A stretch of DNA of 64,000 nucleotides from NCBI RefSeq assembly GCF_000337835.1, contig NZ_AOLM01000028.1, positions 186,001-250,000 on the forward strand. Direction: 5' to 3'. Made by a program: the position numbers and the translations under genes. Numbering within the stretch: position 1 is the first letter of the stretch; every line of letters begins with the position of its first letter. The DNA comes from Haloferax sulfurifontis ATCC BAA-897 (GTDB taxonomy: Archaea; Halobacteriota; Halobacteria; Halobacteriales; Haloferacaceae). The notes under the pieces were generated by a model that was not told where the DNA came from, ran no database searches, and saw only the letters and a program-made list of their open reading frames with translations. Positions 3,797-44,117 of the stretch are shown here, one piece after another.

Positions 3797-3815
3797 TTAT
3801 ACATCGCATATTCGC
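3797..3815. promoter_or_regulatory. Possible operator: TATACATC...ATATTCG motif
   Basis: The sequence TTATACATCGCATATTCGC lies about 85-100 bp before the fusion gene at 3900. It resembles the element before the SDR gene at 12443-12465 (TATACATC, then ATATTCG). Shared motifs in front of two genes of the same catabolic set suggest a common regulator. No regulator gene lies next to this cluster inside the window. Confidence 0.3.
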
Positions 3816-10983: not shown

Positions 10984-11003
10984 GAATACTTACCACTGTA
11001 TTC
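10984..11003. promoter_or_regulatory. Inverted repeat over the acyl-CoA dehydrogenase TATA region
   Basis: GAATAC-N8-GTATTC is a perfect 6-bp inverted repeat. Its left arm lies 28-33 bp before the ATG at 11017, at the expected TATA position, so a bound protein would block transcription. The half-site resembles the GTATAC elements found after this gene. Confidence 0.4.
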
Positions 11004-11016
11004 TAAAATTGAGATA

Positions 11017-12153
11017 ATGGCTTACGAATTGACCGAGTCGAACGACGAGATTCGAGAACGCGTGCGCGCGTTCGGCGAAGAAGCGATTGCGCCCGTCGCA
11101 CGGGAGTACGACCGAACCGCCGAGTATCCGGACGACATCATCGCCGAGGCGGCCAAATCGGGACTCGTCGGGGCGAACGTCCCCTCGGAGTACGGCGGGC
11201 TCGGCCTCGACCCGCTGGAGATGGCGATTTACACAGAGGAGCTCTGGCGGGCGGACCCCGGTATCGGACTGGCGATTCAGGCGCGAAGCTTCGGCTCGAC
11301 GCTCCTGTTGGACCAAGCCGACGAACAGCTGTGCGAAACGTGGCTCCCGCGGATAACCGCCGGCGAAGTCGGAACGTGCATGGCGCTTACCGAACCGGAC
11401 TACGGCTCCGACATGGCGGGCATTCAAACCCGCGCCGAGCGCGACGGCGACGAGTGGACGCTCACCGGGAAGAAAAAGTGGATTACCGGCGCGTCCGTCG
11501 CCGACGTCGCGATCATCATCGCTCGGACGACCCAAGACGCCGAGCATCGGGGGTTGACCGCGTTCCTCGTGCCGACGGACCGTGACGGGTTCGAGGCGAC
11601 ACCCATCACCGGCAAGTTGGGGATTCGCGCGGCGGACGTCGCGGGAATCGAGCTCGACGACGTCCGGATTCCGAAGGAGAACGTCGTCGGAGAGGTCGAC
11701 CGGGGCTTCTATCACCTGCTCGAGTTCTTCGAGACCGAGCGGGTCAACGTGGCCGCACAGGCGGTCGGAGTCGCGCAGGCGGCCCTCGATGCGGCGACCG
11801 ACTACGCGAACTCGCGCACGCAGGGTGAAAAACCGATTAAGGAGTATCAAGCCATCCAACACAAGATTGCGGAGATGGGCTCTGCGGTCGAGGCCGCTCG
11901 GTCGCTGACCTATCGCGCCGCCTCCGCGGGCGACCGCGGGGACGACGACGCGATGAAGCTCGCGAGTATGGCGAAGCAGTTCGCCAGCGAACGGGCCGTC
12001 GAGGTCGCTGACGAAGCCGTTCAGGTACACGGCGGACCGGGATACGTCGAGGACAACTTAGTCGAGAAGTACTACCGTGACGCCCGCATCACGAAGATAT
12101 ACGAGGGCACGAACGAGATACAGAAGAACATCATCGCCCGCGAACTCCTCTGA
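11017..12153 (+). CDS. Acyl-CoA dehydrogenase
   Basis: A 378-residue FAD-dependent acyl-CoA dehydrogenase of standard length. The FAD/substrate loop ALTEPDYGSDMAG is at residues 123-135, KKKWITGA at 152-159, and the catalytic base is Glu363 in IYEGTNEIQ, the position used by short- and medium-chain enzymes. The C-terminal helical domain carries QVHGGPGYVED. It introduces the 2,3 double bond that the hydratase domain of the fusion at 3900 would then hydrate. It is transcribed alone; the SDR gene lies 440 bp downstream behind its own promoter. Confidence 0.92.
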   Translation: MAYELTESNDEIRERVRAFGEEAIAPVAREYDRTAEYPDDIIAEAAKSGLVGANVPSEYGGLGLDPLEMAIYTEELWRADPGIGLAIQARSFGSTLLLDQADEQLCETWLPRITAGEVGTCMALTEPDYGSDMAGIQTRAERDGDEWTLTGKKKWITGASVADVAIIIARTTQDAEHRGLTAFLVPTDRDGFEATPITGKLGIRAADVAGIELDDVRIPKENVVGEVDRGFYHLLEFFETERVNVAAQAVGVAQAALDAATDYANSRTQGEKPIKEYQAIQHKIAEMGSAVEAARSLTYRAASAGDRGDDDAMKLASMAKQFASERAVEVADEAVQVHGGPGYVEDNLVEKYYRDARITKIYEGTNEIQKNIIARELL

Positions 12154-12316: not shown

Positions 12317-12334
12317 GTATACACAAACGTATAC
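12317..12334. promoter_or_regulatory. GTATAC-N6-GTATAC element, copy 1
   Basis: Two self-palindromic GTATAC hexamers separated by six bases (ACAAAC) make a symmetric 18-mer. A second copy with the same spacing is 127 bp downstream. Both lie in the 440-bp gap between the acyl-CoA dehydrogenase and SDR genes, which has no coding sequence. Confidence 0.4.
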
Positions 12335-12443
12335 AGTCGCAATAACAGACAGATTCTGACACACACCATTACAACGCTATGCACGTAACGGACATAGACA
12401 GTAACGAACATACACGAAGGTTCATATTGAATAATTATATAAT

Positions 12444-12461
12444 GTATACATCAATGTATAT
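12444..12461. promoter_or_regulatory. GTATAC-N6-GTATAT element, copy 2
   Basis: This has the same architecture as the element at 12317, with one changed base in the right half. It sits in an AT-rich tract (12420-12465) about 100 bp before the SDR TATA box and overlaps the TATACATC..ATATTCG motif shared with the promoter region of the gene at 3900. Confidence 0.4.
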
Positions 12462-12560
12462 TCGTTTGGGTCGAGACGCGAGATACCCAGTCGCGTTCGC
12501 GGTCGCACCCAACGCCCGAGAGGCAACGACGGGTCGAAAGCGGGGCGAGACACCCGTATA

Positions 12561-12570
12561 TCTTATAAGG
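12561..12570 (+). promoter_or_regulatory. TATA element of the SDR gene
   Basis: TCTTATAAGG has its TTATAA core 26-31 bp before the ATG at 12594, the spacing of a leaderless haloarchaeal transcript. Confidence 0.65.
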
Positions 12571-12593: not shown

Positions 12594-13463
12594 ATGACGA
12601 ACCTTCTCGACGGAAACGTGTACGTCGTCGCCGGCGGTGGCGGCGACCTCGGTCGAGCCACTGCTGAGGAGTTGGCCGCGAACGGTGCGACAGTCGTCGT
12701 CACCGACCTCGGAACGTCGCTCGCGGGCGAGGGCACCGCGGAAGACCCAGCCGCGACGACCGCCGAAGCAATCGAAGCCGACGGCGGCGAGGCGATGGCG
12801 CACGTCGGCGACATAACCAGCCTGGAGTACACGGAGACCCTCATCGAGGACACCCTCGAAGCGTACGGGCGAATCGACGGGGCGGTCAACTACGCCGGCA
12901 TCCTCCGCGACTCGTATCTCACGAACATGACGGGTGAGGAGTGGGACGCCGTGATTCACGTTCATCTGCGCGGCCACTTCTCGCTCCTCCGGAACCTCGC
13001 TCGCCACTGGCGCGACCGCGACGAGGAGACCGAAGGCGGGCTCGCGTCGGAGCGGTCCTTCGTGAGCGTCACGAGTCCGTCGGCGCTCGGAAACGTCGGA
13101 CAGGCGAACTACGGAGCGGCGAAGGCGGGCATCCTCGGACTCACGCGGACGGCGGCACGGGAACTCGCCGCGTCGAACGTCAGAGTGAACGCCCTGTTGC
13201 CCATCGCGTACACGCGGATGACCGAGGGTCTCCTCGACGACGAGTCGAAGTCGGCGGAGAAAATCGCGCCGGTCGTCGCCGCGCTGATGAGCGACGACGC
13301 GGCCGGTATCACCGGCCGGACGATACGCGCCGTCGGCGACTCCGTCAGCGTCCTCTCGGAGCCCGAGATCGAGCGAACCGCGATAAACGAAAACGGCTGG
13401 ACGGTCGACCGCCTCACGTCGGTATTCCACGACGAACTGGGGCTCGGTGACGGCTCGGGGTAG
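12594..13463 (+). CDS. SDR-family 3-hydroxyacyl-CoA dehydrogenase-like oxidoreductase
   Basis: A 289-residue short-chain dehydrogenase. The cofactor loop is AGGGGDLG (residues 13-20), the NNAG equivalent is NYAG (99-102), and the catalytic Ser near 161-163, Tyr173 and Lys177 are present (YGAAK). A long insertion after beta-2 (GTSLAGEGTAEDPAATTAEA, starting at residue 40) resembles the SDR domain of peroxisomal multifunctional enzyme 2, which oxidises (3R)-hydroxyacyl-CoA. No MaoC hydratase lies nearby. It could act on an intermediate of opposite stereochemistry to the fusion enzyme, or on a steroid- or isoprenoid-like substrate. About 35 C-terminal residues beyond the core are unusual and may form an oligomer contact. 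Confidence 0.85.
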   Translation: MTNLLDGNVYVVAGGGGDLGRATAEELAANGATVVVTDLGTSLAGEGTAEDPAATTAEAIEADGGEAMAHVGDITSLEYTETLIEDTLEAYGRIDGAVNYAGILRDSYLTNMTGEEWDAVIHVHLRGHFSLLRNLARHWRDRDEETEGGLASERSFVSVTSPSALGNVGQANYGAAKAGILGLTRTAARELAASNVRVNALLPIAYTRMTEGLLDDESKSAEKIAPVVAALMSDDAAGITGRTIRAVGDSVSVLSEPEIERTAINENGWTVDRLTSVFHDELGLGDGSG

Positions 13464-13767
13464 CCGTCGGTCGAGACGCCACCGTTCGGACTGGGGAGGA
13501 ATCGAGCACTTCGCCGGAGTCTCGCCTTCGAACGGGGGGATTCGACTCGCAATTAGCCTAGCCTCCGATGCCCGGGAGCCACCCGTGTCGAAGATTCTAT
13601 ATAGCGACATAAGGTTTGCCTGTTTGATTCTCCGTTTTCGTCAGATACCGCTTAAACTCATTGTCCATGCACGACAACGAGCTAATCAAAAATTCAGGGA
13701 ATGTTTCATATCTGCGCTAACTACGAACAACCCAGTCCTTAGAATCAGCCTTCACGAAGCCGCTTAG

Positions 13768-14325
13768 TTGGGACGTGTCCCACAATTCCTAACAGCGTCG
13801 AAAGACACGCTAACTGGATCGAATCTCCGGCAGGCAGTTCACCAAGGCGCGGCCAACGACCAAGCACGCTACAATATGTGTTTCGCCGCGGCGACGCTCG
13901 CGGGTCAGGCGTTCGTAAATTCAGGCCTCGGCGCGGTTCACGCGTTGACCTATCCACTCGTCGTCGAACACGGTATCGGCCGCGGGTTAGCAAATGCGGT
14001 ACTCCTCCCTCACGTTATGGAGTATGACGTTCCGTCTGAACCCGACCGGTTCGCCGAAATTGCGACCCTCCTCGGCCAGCGCGAGGGACCCCCCGGCGAC
14101 ACGACGCTAGACCTCGCGTACGAGAGCGTGGATGCGGTGAAACAGCTCAACGAAGACACCGGGACGTTGACGTTGTTGTCCGGATTCCGAAGCGAACCGA
14201 TACTGTGGTATCTCCACATGGCCAGAACTCTATACATGTTTGTTCACTATCGTTGCACAAAAATCGATTCGGCTCAATTAGAATTACACAATTATGCTTG
14301 TAATTCTATGTTCGATACAATCTGA
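13768..14325 (+). pseudogene. Iron-containing alcohol dehydrogenase remnant (middle part only)
   Basis: The translated frame from about 13780 to 14210 matches the second half of Fe-dependent alcohol dehydrogenases: ARYNMCFAAATLAGQAFVNS, GLGAVHALTYPL, then RGLANAVLLPHVMEYD. The N-terminal NAD-binding half is absent and the C-terminus dissolves after TLTLLSGF into unrelated residues. The usual PHG metal-binding histidine is Arg (GIGRGLAN). There is no good start codon. It is best read as a fragment left by deletion. It marks the left part of the lower-GC accessory region. The 300 bp between it and the SDR gene hold nothing recognisable. Confidence 0.75.
14279..14308. repeat. Perfect 10-bp inverted repeat containing a TTACAC..TGTAA palindrome
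   Basis: TAGAATTACA, ten bases, then TGTAATTCTA. The core TTACACAATTATGCTTGTAA (14284-14303) shares 14 of 20 positions with cores at 37513-37532 and 43803-43822. It lies just after the Fe-ADH remnant with no gene start close by. Confidence 0.5.
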
Positions 14326-35813: not shown

Positions 35814-36245
35814 CGAGACCGACACACTGACCAGACCGTCGCACTGACGACTGCCGTTCTCGTTTTCGTCCGCACCCGGGCCGTTCTCTCGTGGGTCGAG
35901 CCGACCAGCGCCCGCGTCACTGCGGCGACCGCGACGACCGCGACGACCGCGTAGTCGAACCGCTCGCTACCACCGGTCTCGGATCACCGGTTTGAGACGC
36001 TGAAGCTGTTGTTTATCGCGGTCCAGTTCGTATGCGCTCGCTCGAAACGCCGAATCGTTTGTACAATGAGAACGTAGTCACTCACAGAAGATTCCACCGG
36101 TATCACCACTTCAGAAGACAATATTCGGGAGAACTACCCCTCAGACCACGGAGTGTCGCGGCAATTCGTGCGATTACCGGTCCGTGTCAGAACTGAGCGT
36201 TTGTCAAATACAAACACCTATGCCGCGGGAGCTTCGAACTGGACT
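35814..36245. other. Gap between the M20 and IclR genes
   Basis: No gene is supported. A short 9-bp tandem (GACCGCGAC, about 2.6 copies near 35930) and the palindrome at 36199-36215 are the only structures noticed. Confidence 0.4.
36199..36215. promoter_or_regulatory. Palindrome before the IclR gene, probable operator
   Basis: GTTTGTCAAATACAAAC is a 6-bp perfect inverted repeat around five bases, 31-47 bp upstream of ATG 36246, where it would overlap the BRE/TATA region. Size and position fit an IclR autoregulation site. Confidence 0.5.
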
Positions 36246-37061
36246 ATGGCAGACGAACCCACGACCGGCTCGCCGCGGACCCTGAAAACGGTGTCGCGCG
36301 CGTTCGACGTCGTTCGTGCGCTCGAAGAGTTAGACGGCGCGCGGGTGACGGAGCTGGCGAACCACCTCGACCTCTCGAAGAGCGTCGTCTACAACTACCT
36401 GAGCACGCTTCGGGCCGAGAAGTTCGTCGTGAAGGAAGGAGACACCTACCAGCTGTCACTGCAGTTCCTCCTCGTGGGCGAGTACGTCCGGTACCAGAAC
36501 ATCCTCTACCGCATCGGCAAGCCCGAAATCGAGGAACTCGCGGAGAAGACCGGCGAGTACGCCCATTTGGCGACCGAACAGCACGGGCTGGGGGTCAACC
36601 TCTACAAGGTGAGCGGCGAGAAGGCCGTCGGGAGCGACTACCAGGTGAACAAACTCCAGCGCGCCGACTACCTCCACTTCTCGGCGACGGGGAAGGCAAT
36701 TCTCGCGCACCTCCCGAGAGAGCGCGTCGAGTGGATTATCGACCAGTACGGCCTGCCGGGCAAGACCGAGGCGACCATCACGACCCGCGAGGAGCTCTTC
36801 GAGGAGTTGGAGACGATTCGCGACCGGGGTTACTCGCTCAACGACGAAGAGGAGATAAAGGGCCTGCAGGCCATCGGCGCGCCGGTGACGAACCGGCACG
36901 GCCGCGTCCTCGGCTCCATCAGCGTCTCCGGGCCCGTCCGCCGGATGAAACAGCCGGAGTACCACGAACAGCTCATCGAGAACGTCGTCAACACCGCCAA
37001 CGTCATCGAAGTGAACGTCAACATGGAGGAGTCCGACGACGACTTTCCGACGTTCAGCTAG
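36246..37061 (+). CDS. IclR-family transcriptional regulator
   Basis: A 271-residue regulator. Residues 12-70 form the winged HTH (TLKTVSRAFDVVRALEEL, VTELANHLDLSKSVVYNYLSTL) and residues about 75-260 form the GAF-like effector domain (YHLSATGKAILAHLP-type segment at DYLHFSATGKAILAHLPRE, and GAPVTNRHGRVLGSISVSGP). IclR proteins sense a small organic acid. ATG 36246 was chosen over an in-frame start at 36153. The gene sits at the end of the DUF1028-dpp-M20 block and is the best candidate for its regulator. Confidence 0.9.
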   Translation: MADEPTTGSPRTLKTVSRAFDVVRALEELDGARVTELANHLDLSKSVVYNYLSTLRAEKFVVKEGDTYQLSLQFLLVGEYVRYQNILYRIGKPEIEELAEKTGEYAHLATEQHGLGVNLYKVSGEKAVGSDYQVNKLQRADYLHFSATGKAILAHLPRERVEWIIDQYGLPGKTEATITTREELFEELETIRDRGYSLNDEEEIKGLQAIGAPVTNRHGRVLGSISVSGPVRRMKQPEYHEQLIENVVNTANVIEVNVNMEESDDDFPTFS

Positions 37062-37963
37062 TCGGCCGCGTCGTCGCCGGGCATCACGCCAGAATCGTCG
37101 TCACGTCGACAGCACCCACTCGGTTCACAAACGGAGAACCGGCGGTCTCGGTCGGACCGCTTCGAGTCGGAGCCCCAATCGCCGCGAGCGCGCGACCGAA
37201 CGACCCACATCCCCCAAACGTCGTTATCGCGGTTCCGAAGCCGCCTCCGGGTCGTATTCTGTCCGCCAATCGAGCCGAACGTCGGGGCGTCGCGCGCCCA
37301 GCGACGGCGTGAGACCGGACCACCAGAGAGCCGACAGACGACAACGACGACCCCAGATGGTTGACTAAATAAGAACACTGACCGATTTTCATCCGCCGAA
37401 CGTCCAGCTATTCGACAGATTCTGCCGAGTCTATTTAGTTCATAATCTGTCGACGGAACGTCTGACCAACTGCGGCCAGCGACTGACACCTCCCGGACGG
37501 GTGTCGATTCCATTACACAGCTATTGGTGTAATTGGGTTGGCGGTCACGAATTGAATTGGCTGTCACGGTTCGACCGTCAGTCACGCGGGACTTGGGACC
37601 GAAACCGCGTCGACGAGCGGACACATCCGATTGACTGGGCGAGTCCAGACGGGAGTGTCCCCCTCCGAAAACGCGGTTTCGAGGCTATCCAATAGTGCGA
37701 TTAAAAAGCAATATCGTCTCGGTTCGAACTGGTTTCCGATAGCATCCGGGAATTTCGAATAGACCGAATGACTCTGATATCCACAAGACAAGTGGTGATA
37801 CGGATTTTTCAGCGCTTATCAGTTCACAATTTGTAAAATTTGAAGAAAGTGTGCCCAGTGTGAAAGTCGCCGGTCACGCTGTGTCCGAGGTTCGCACCAC
37901 CTTTGTTGTTCTAAATACACAATAATATCGGACTCAATAGAGCGGGGCGAAGGCGAAGCGGCC
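37062..37963. other. 900-bp gene-free stretch with a palindrome
   Basis: No convincing gene on either strand. The stretch contains ATTACAC-N8-GTGTAAT (37512-37533), and immediately after it a near direct repeat (TTGGCGGTCACG / TTGGCTGTCACG). A minus-strand frame with an ATG right at the palindrome edge (about 37514 leftward) is Arg/Ser-rich and looks spurious. The right part (37790-37930) is AT-rich. Confidence 0.4.
37512..37533. repeat. Palindrome ATTACAC-N8-GTGTAAT
   Basis: Seven-base arms are perfectly complementary. The core TTACACAGCTATTGGTGTAA belongs to the same family as those at 14284 and 43803. Confidence 0.5.
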
Positions 37964-43298: not shown

Positions 43299-44117
43299 CT
43301 CACCCGACGCGGTCTCCGGTGGTGTGGCGTCCGGAACGGTCGACGACGGCTACAGAGCCTCATTTGAATGAAAACCGGCCCACGAGACTGATGAACCCAT
43401 CGAAATCACGTATATCGGCTGATAGTGAGCCAATCGTCTCCATAAGTAATGCGATGCATACGAGTGCCGAATCCCGCTGATGGTGACGCGGGGTTTAGCG
43501 AGTCGCGGGTGACGCGCGAGGGCCCGAAACTCGAAAGCGGTCCGTTTCATCGAGATAGGCGTCTCGACGTTCAGAGGATATCGGAGCCGATAAATCGTAT
43601 AGCGCGATACGTAACTGAATCACGGCGGACCAAATTCGAGCGCACCACGACCCCGAAACACGTGAGTGGGAACCCCGCCGGTGTTCGACGGCACAGTCCA
43701 TCGAGACGGACAATTTGCCCGTCAGAGCCGGGAGAATCCGACGGACCGGTCGGTCCATCGGGGACTCGTACGCCCAATAATGACGACGGGTCGACGTTTT
43801 TGTTACACAGCTACCCTTGTAAAGTATAGTGACGTTCGTTTCGGCGAACAAGAGACTGTGGAACGTTGAAACGCCGTCCAAGACTCTTCAGACGGGCCTC
43901 TCCTGTGACGAACCCGTGTTAAATCGGGCGGGCACAACAGATTCAATCAGCCGAGACTGTGGCGAACCGACCGATGCGCCCGGTTTCCCACAGCCCGACG
44001 CCTCCGCCTCGCCGCAGACGGGACCGCGTCGCGCCTCGCCTCCGAATTGGACTCGATGTGGCCACTGTCACGCCCGGACAGACGCGATGGCGTCGTTCGT
44101 TCCGAGCTAACCCTAAC
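43299..44117. other. 820-bp gene-free stretch with a palindrome
   Basis: Several frames stay open on both strands, but composition (Arg/Ser-rich, low Asp/Glu) argues against coding. TTACACAGCTACCCTTGTAA sits at 43803-43822. Control sites for the PiT gene may lie at the left end; no clear TATA box was seen. Confidence 0.4.
43803..43822. repeat. TTACACAGCTACCCTTGTAA palindrome copy
   Basis: Five-base inverted arms around ten bases; shares its first 11 bases (TTACACAGCTA) and last four (GTAA, with the TGTAA arm) with the copy at 37513. On the minus strand TCGAC.CCCGTC follows both copies at nearly the same distance, hinting at longer relatedness. Confidence 0.5.

Follow-up and report, generated by a model that had tools for sequence, protein, structure and literature searches.

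Upstream of an SDR-family oxidoreductase gene, the Haloferax DNA window analyzed here carries a composite element built of two motifs, A (GTWWAC-N6/7-GTWWAC, with mostly GTATAC half-sites) and B (TTACA-N4-TA-N4-TGTAA), arranged in the order A-B-A. The window is a 64,000 bp stretch, C28:186001-250000, of a genome of 3,812,428 bp in 29 contigs. From sequence comparisons, motif A is close to certain to be a real regulatory site tied to its gene cluster. We consider it probable that A is the operator of the P0001 protein family, and that P0001 is a ribbon-helix-helix (RHH) regulator of a PaaA-like/UbiD cluster and of the SDR gene.

The composite element upstream of the SDR gene

Two 18-mers with the same half-site spacing lie in the intergenic region between the acyl-CoA dehydrogenase (ACAD) and SDR genes, their starts 127 bp apart, as the original prediction had it (Table 1). 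A third element, B', overlooked in that prediction, is located between them. Measured from the likely SDR TATA region, the A-B'-A unit lies ~95-250 bp upstream, and its order matches that found in homologous gaps of other genomes (see below). In the same-species genome G324 the half-sites of A site 1 and the defining letters of B' are kept, and A site 2 with its near flanks is identical.

The score of A site 2 is within the maxima of shuffled DNA, making this site weak alone; an unrelated place in the same genome (C28:151027) scores higher, at 14.7. The A site preceding P0001 has a score of 12.3. The case for A site 2 is made because it is accompanied by A site 1 and B'. Counted in the window only, at up to two mismatches, there are four strand-matches (two places, both strands) against a shuffle mean of 0.83, and 2 of 100 shuffles were as high, so that the excess of 18-mers is slight and mildly unusual.

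Two further places had been proposed as relatives of these 18-mers. The sequence GAATAC-N8-GTATTC is present at 10984-11003, before the ACAD gene, but an N8 spacing does not occur in the 37 homologous gaps under any of the three definitions of a half-site applied, and the best matrix score around 10984 is −4.5; no A site was found at the ACAD promoter. The words TATACATC...ATATTCG do occur at 3798, before a fusion gene, and at 12445, but their starts are 10 bp apart at one place and 13 bp at the other, and the 3797 place scores −7.3. On spacing and matrix score, both places were rejected as members of the regulon. The element before the SDR gene is a composite A-B-A with two different motifs.

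Table 1. Coordinates of the composite elements, neighboring genes and candidate regulator (window positions, or contig C28 where marked)
Feature	Position	Strand	Remarks
A site 1, GTATAC-N6-GTATAC	12317..12334		GTATACACAAACGTATAC; matrix score 26.4, outside training set
B-like central palindrome (B'), TTACA-N4-TA-N4-CGTAA	12369..12388		TTACAACGCTATGCACGTAA; 1 mismatch vs TTACA-N4-TA-N4-TGTAA
A site 2, GTATAC-N6-GTATAT	12444..12461		GTATACATCAATGTATAT; 1 mismatch vs palindromic consensus; matrix score 13.9
Likely TATA region of SDR gene	12556..12570	+	by eye; start site inferred near start codon
SDR-family oxidoreductase gene, proposed target	12594..13463	+	Pfam adh_short_C2 7.4e-33
Acyl-CoA dehydrogenase gene, upstream of element	11017..12153	+	Pfam
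A sites in ECH-ferredoxin gap	C28:164511-164528, 164744-164761		
B palindromes between those A sites	C28:164582-164601, 164671-164690		
A site before P0001	C28:174641-174658		59 bp upstream of P0001 ORF
P0001, 188-aa ORF	C28:174016-174582	minus	11.4 kb left of window; first gene of UbiD operon

Motif A in the Haloferax genome

The pattern GTATAC-N6-GTATAY occurs at five places genome-wide, all of them within 34 kb (C28:164511-198461), compared to none for a reversed-pattern control. When up to two mismatches to GTATAC-N6-GTATAC were allowed, 35 places were found in this genome versus 12 for the control. All five places are in a catabolic region, near ECH, P0001-UbiD and SDR genes, and none precedes the ACAD or HADH/ECH fusion genes of the window.

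To the left of the window, at C28:160-175 kb, lies a cluster whose PaaA-like protein matches Pfam PaaA_PaaC at 3.2e-62 and stays under the cut-off of the NCBIfam PaaA model. Other products of the cluster are PaaC- and PaaD-like proteins, a ferredoxin of the 2Fe-2S type, GNAT, AMP-ligase, ECH, SDR and acyl-CoA dehydrogenase proteins, a protein with a metallo-beta-lactamase fold, and a UbiD decarboxylase with a UbiD-like partner. Because of these enzyme families, the substrates of the cluster are probably aromatic acids. A composite element with two B palindromes (C28:164511-164761) fills the ECH-ferredoxin gap of the cluster, facing the ECH gene. The 18-mers had been taken for operators of a beta-oxidation regulon; a tie to acyl-CoA-type catabolism is supported, but the center is the PaaA-like/UbiD cluster, with the SDR gene outlying, and not general beta-oxidation.

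Motif A in homologous gaps of other genomes

We surveyed 392 genomes of the order. Relatives of P0001 were found in 81 of them, and the exact GTATAC-N6-GTATAC sequence at 76 sites in 54 genomes, against 11 sites for the reversed control (hand count). The 21 genomes with both P0001 and the exact N6 site contain 40 such sites, 32 of which are no more than 25 kb from P0001 (hand count). Among the 311 genomes without P0001, 36 exact N6 sites are spread over 33 genomes, mostly as singles (G220 has three, G203 two). G220 has no match to P0001, and its three copies (G220:C4:42860-43129; L094 8860-9129), which follow each other at exact 126-bp intervals, are probably a different repeated element. When GTATAC pairs at spacings N0-N20 were counted in 15 genomes chosen for having sites, 53 were found (reversed control, 12), with 29 at N6, 11 at N7 and 13 at the rest.

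PaaA-like proteins at 71% identity or more are encoded in 39 of the 392 genomes, and all 39 loci were examined. All 38 examined loci from P0001-bearing genomes have an exact A pair in the ferredoxin-side gap, and none of the four examined PaaA loci that lack an intact P0001 has one: in G160 P0001 is fragmentary and the gap is 103 bp, while G316, G231 and G190 have PaaA at ~60% identity and no P0001. Placement was not random, a possibility raised with the original prediction: the homologous gaps, 24,466 bp in all, contain 66 A pairs, compared to five in the remaining 482,414 bp of the fetched regions. Three of those five are themselves proposed A sites, namely the G174 site described below and the copies that precede P0001 in the two Haloferax genomes.

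In 37 gaps (23,939 bp) GTATAC pairs are spaced by N6 in 29 cases and by N7 in 25, while other spacings up to N30 together account for 11; dinucleotide shuffling of the same gaps gave a mean of 0.005 N6 and N7 pairs. Half-sites vary between GTATAC, GTTTAC and GTAAAC. With GTATAC half-sites and no more than one mismatch for A and B, the order of elements in these gaps is ABBA in 10, ABA in 8 and ABB in 3; another 10 contain A only, 4 BB only and 2 neither. Two A thus flank one or two B in 18 of the 37 gaps, about half. The A-B-B-A gap is present in at least four haloarchaeal families and A alone in seven.

At 29 of the 39 loci the gap is bordered by the converging 3′ ends of the ferredoxin and ligase genes. 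In six loci (two Haloferax, three Halobellus-type and G177) it adjoins the start of an ECH gene or a related one. Its neighbor is an IclR-like gene in G079 and G039 and an MBL gene in G298, with the 3′ end toward the gap in all three; in G014 the genes are in tandem. The nearest A pair is 916-1978 bp from the start of the PaaA match (37 loci).

Motif A at the paaA-like promoter and in UbiD operons without PaaA

In 24 of 39 loci, the promoter of the paaA-like gene has GTATAC immediately before AGRAAACAATTATA (up to three mismatches); a second, weaker half lies another 13 bp outward. This box is missing in the other 15 loci, which include Haloferax, the Halobellus-type genomes, G177 and nine others.

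A second type of cluster is represented by 14 P0001 loci without PaaA, 13 of which have the arrangement P0001-UbiD-UbiD2. The gap after UbiD2 contains GTWWAC-N6-GTWWAC exactly in 7 of the 13 and with at most one mismatch in 12 of the 13 (shuffle mean, 0.11). Exact pairs after UbiD2 are also found in G320 and G174, further P0001-UbiD loci without PaaA. Around the P0001 copy of the fourteenth locus (G282, L179), the sole mapped one without UbiD, no A pair was detected within 6 kb, even at one mismatch. In a set of 30 named P0001 loci from Haloferax, Halobellus, Halorubrum, Haladaptatus, Natrinema and others, 25 pairs were counted versus one for a reversed-letter control; 15 of the 30 loci carry a pair, the 10-kb flank being often short of the gap and many of these genomes overlapping the other sets.

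Motif B

TTACA-Nk-TGTAA has k=10 in 28 of the 30 cases found in the 37 gaps at k up to 25 (shuffle mean, 0.01), and all 28 TTACA-N10-TGTAA sequences have a central TA that the pattern did not require. The Haloferax genome has 13 exact copies of TTACA-N4-TA-N4-TGTAA and, when one mismatch is tolerated, 26, compared to one for the control. Three of ten scanned genes beside B sites code for IclR regulators, and B may be an IclR-type operator. Like operators of the IclR family, B is a palindromic 20-bp element with several copies near IclR genes; none of the matches listed in our literature search reported a haloarchaeal motif equal to it.

At one mismatch, B is absent from 12 of 38 gaps, and inspection by eye revealed other palindromes in its place in some gaps, for example TAACACG...GTGTTA. 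In G079 and G039 (L091 1895-2785, L141) an IclR-like gene borders a gap with a palindrome of this type instead of B, which suggests that the central operator may be exchanged together with its regulator.

P0001, a candidate regulator

The expectation that the regulator is encoded outside the window was supported, since the likely regulator is P0001. Comparison with relatives indicates that its true start is probably ~60 bp further in than that of the ORF in Table 1. P0001 heads a UbiD-UbiD2 operon in all mapped loci that reach it except G282 and G160; the mapping covered 55 of the 81 P0001-bearing genomes.

The C-terminus of P0001 reads as strand-helix-helix, with an invariant Arg123 column in an alignment of 23 members. 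Weak profile matches to RHH families were obtained among these members (ParD in 8, CdrS in 4, NikR in 1); the same scan also produced weak non-RHH matches, and an unrelated AAA-ATPase model was better for two members (7.9e-5). P0001 itself matches CdrS with an E-value of 0.0043 (17 bits; cut-off 100) and ParD with 0.065 (13.3 bits; cut-off 46.2); it did not reach the cut-off of any curated RHH model and has no Pfam family, hence no Pfam RHH assignment. A profile search against PDB sequences placed PDCD5 (0.033) above ParD (0.21).

The AlphaFold model of P0001 (pLDDT 77, pTM 0.46) contains a five-strand N-terminal domain and helices at 125-136 and 143-158; the stretch 118-123 that precedes them is not called strand in the monomer model. 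ParD-type antitoxin chains hold structural ranks 1-3, with Z of 5.6, 5.1 and 4.2, below the guide value of 8 for this tool, rmsd of 5.2, 5.5 and 10.0 Å and 55, 51 and 66 aligned positions. When the whole model was compared to the PDB with Foldseek, nothing reached E ≤ 0.001; the chains listed, mainly kinase, sortase and LOV, had low TM-scores and were set aside as noise. We regard the C-terminus of P0001 as a probable RHH domain.

No other DNA-binding family is present among the families recurring in at least four loci, except IclR near five loci. A PaaX or PaaR (TetR) regulator is absent from these recurring families and from the scanned Haloferax cluster proteins, a subset of the ORFs of the region. 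The unlabeled recurring proteins that were scanned turned out to be CoA-transferase subunits, PaaB and GNAT and were rejected as regulators; IclR was rejected as the A-binder, since a search of the cluster regions turned up IclR-like genes in just five. P0001 is the best candidate binder and likely the reader of A.

Proposed mechanism and alternatives

Given the observed sites, their spacing, order, conservation and association with P0001, we propose the following. The five-strand N-terminal domain of P0001 is presumed to sense a pathway metabolite. One RHH dimer would bind each six-base half via its beta-ribbon, with the invariant Arg123 and Asn/Thr121 facing the DNA, and cooperative binding would join adjacent dimers, spaced by 12-13 bp, in some cases into arrays of three or four. 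In the 24 of 39 loci with an A box at the paaA-like promoter, the box lies right beside the BRE/TATA and would control the paaA-like gene directly. The further element beside the ferredoxin gene, A-B-(B)-A in its fullest form, would combine P0001 with an IclR-type regulator that probably reads B. In Haloferax the A site before P0001 would mediate autoregulation, and the A-B-A copy in the window would put the SDR gene under the same control as the PaaA-like/UbiD cluster, which may illustrate how a neighboring gene comes under such control. Repression is slightly favored over activation, because A at paaA touches the BRE.

Several observations count against this model, among them the lack of an A pair around P0001 in G282, the exact N6 sites in genomes without P0001, the gaps lacking B, the paaA box missing from 15 of 39 loci, the score at C28:151027 and the RHH scores far below curated cut-offs. 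Half-sites vary with no obvious matching change in the P0001 strand; a by-eye comparison of half-site type with strand residues found no correlation. P0001 also heads UbiD operons nearly everywhere mapped, so that it could be a UbiD partner instead of a regulator. Multi-subunit UbiD-family carboxylases exist, and P0001 might be an accessory subunit of such a complex, using its C-terminal helices for protein contacts, while an unlinked regulator binds A as a real cluster operator. The weak sequence evidence for an RHH domain fits this reading. We nevertheless consider it rather unlikely: A pairs follow P0001 into clusters that, among the proteins compared, have in common with the PaaA cluster only UbiD, UbiD2 and distant ligase/ACAD relatives, A precedes P0001 in Haloferax, and the structural list is topped by ParD-type antitoxin chains. 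A low probability is also assigned to A-B-A being a single operator at which the subunits of one IclR-type tetramer contact A and B together. Such a tetramer would explain the A-B-(B)-A order and the IclR genes found beside B sites and at the gap border in G079 and G039, but B does not accompany A upstream of P0001, at the paaA promoter or, at one mismatch, in 12 of 38 gaps, many B sites of C8 and C18 have no A beside them, and IclR-like genes are as rare in the cluster regions as stated above.

In most loci the gap separates converging genes, a place with no obvious target for an operator. This position would be accounted for if the gap encoded a small RNA or a small protein with A and B as its promoter elements. 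This is very unlikely, since an Rfam search of five loci yielded no match to a known RNA, no further conserved stretch was noticed when 19 gaps were compared by eye, and in several genomes as little as ~50-90 bp lies outside the A sites, which is scant room for a small gene. Some long gaps do contain another gene, for example a GNAT-type gene in G224 and G226. Chance AT-rich repeats in an intergenic region would be compatible with the small excess in the window alone and with the score of A site 2 but are hardly credible in view of the genome-wide clustering, the spacing compared to shuffles, the density in gaps, the conservation in a second type of cluster and the retention of the window sites in G324, one other same-species genome.

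Returning to P0001 as the reader of A, a conserved composite between converging genes, with no obvious promoter to act on, raises the question of control at a distance in archaea. We tentatively suggest, as a possibility that remains doubtful, that the A-B-B-A gap is an archaeal distal control element which loops to the A box of the paaA-like gene and joins RHH and IclR-type regulators. It would be a platform of ~150-300 bp beside the ferredoxin gene, 0.9-2.0 kb from the paaA-like gene and mostly between converging ends.

Relation to known systems

RHH repressors such as Arc, MetJ, CopG/ParD and NikR recognize short palindromic boxes, one per dimer, at fixed short spacing, through a beta-ribbon with Asn-x-Arg, and have a site before the regulator's own gene. 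Repeated short boxes, an Asn-x-Arg ribbon and, in Haloferax, an own-gene site are features that the P0001/A system would share; it differs in its 12-13 bp spacing, an added N-terminal domain, UbiD/PaaA-type targets and a second motif. CdrS, a haloarchaeal RHH protein, is described as a regulator of ftsZ2 and cell division, and the word "motif" is absent from the main text of that report (PMC7439475). P0001 is likewise haloarchaeal and has the weak NCBIfam CdrS match given above, but it comprises 188 residues, compared to 61 positions in the CdrS model.

Bacterial phenylacetate degradation is controlled by PaaX and PaaR, the latter a TetR-family protein, and most phenylacetate-type clusters of Halobacteria are without local transcriptional regulators, according to a 2026 survey (PMC13186573). 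PaaX/PaaR resemble what is proposed for P0001/A in the local control of a PaaA-type epoxidase cluster; PaaR differs in being TetR-family. Our proposal would supply a local regulator and an operator, with a defined half-site and spacing, for clusters reported to be mostly without one. Motifs A and B were absent among the matches listed in searches on phenylacetate in haloarchaea, IclR operators, RHH proteins, distal control or looping, and Haloferax paaA. The haloarchaeal search for GTATAC returned a halovirus paper only, that for TTACA palindromes returned papers unrelated by title, and none was found that joins phenylacetic acid, UbiD and haloarchaea.

Other features of the window and of contig C8

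Third-position GC of called genes changes from ~0.80-0.87 on the left to ~0.61-0.80 on the right at about position 13700 of the window, which may mark a boundary in composition next to the SDR gene. An ORF of 185 aa at 13768-14325 matches positions 37-151 of the 194 in the Fe-alcohol dehydrogenase C-terminal model and is possibly a gene remnant. Exact B palindromes are found elsewhere in the window at 14284-14303, inside this ORF, at 37513-37532, 452 bp after an IclR-like gene (36153-37061), and at 43803-43822. Contig C8 contains seven exact B sites (L161-L167); the neighbors scanned there include three IclR regulators, an FAA hydrolase, a GDSL lipase, a cupin and a mandelate-racemase-type gene, and these sites are perhaps part of a wider B regulon for sugar-acid catabolism.
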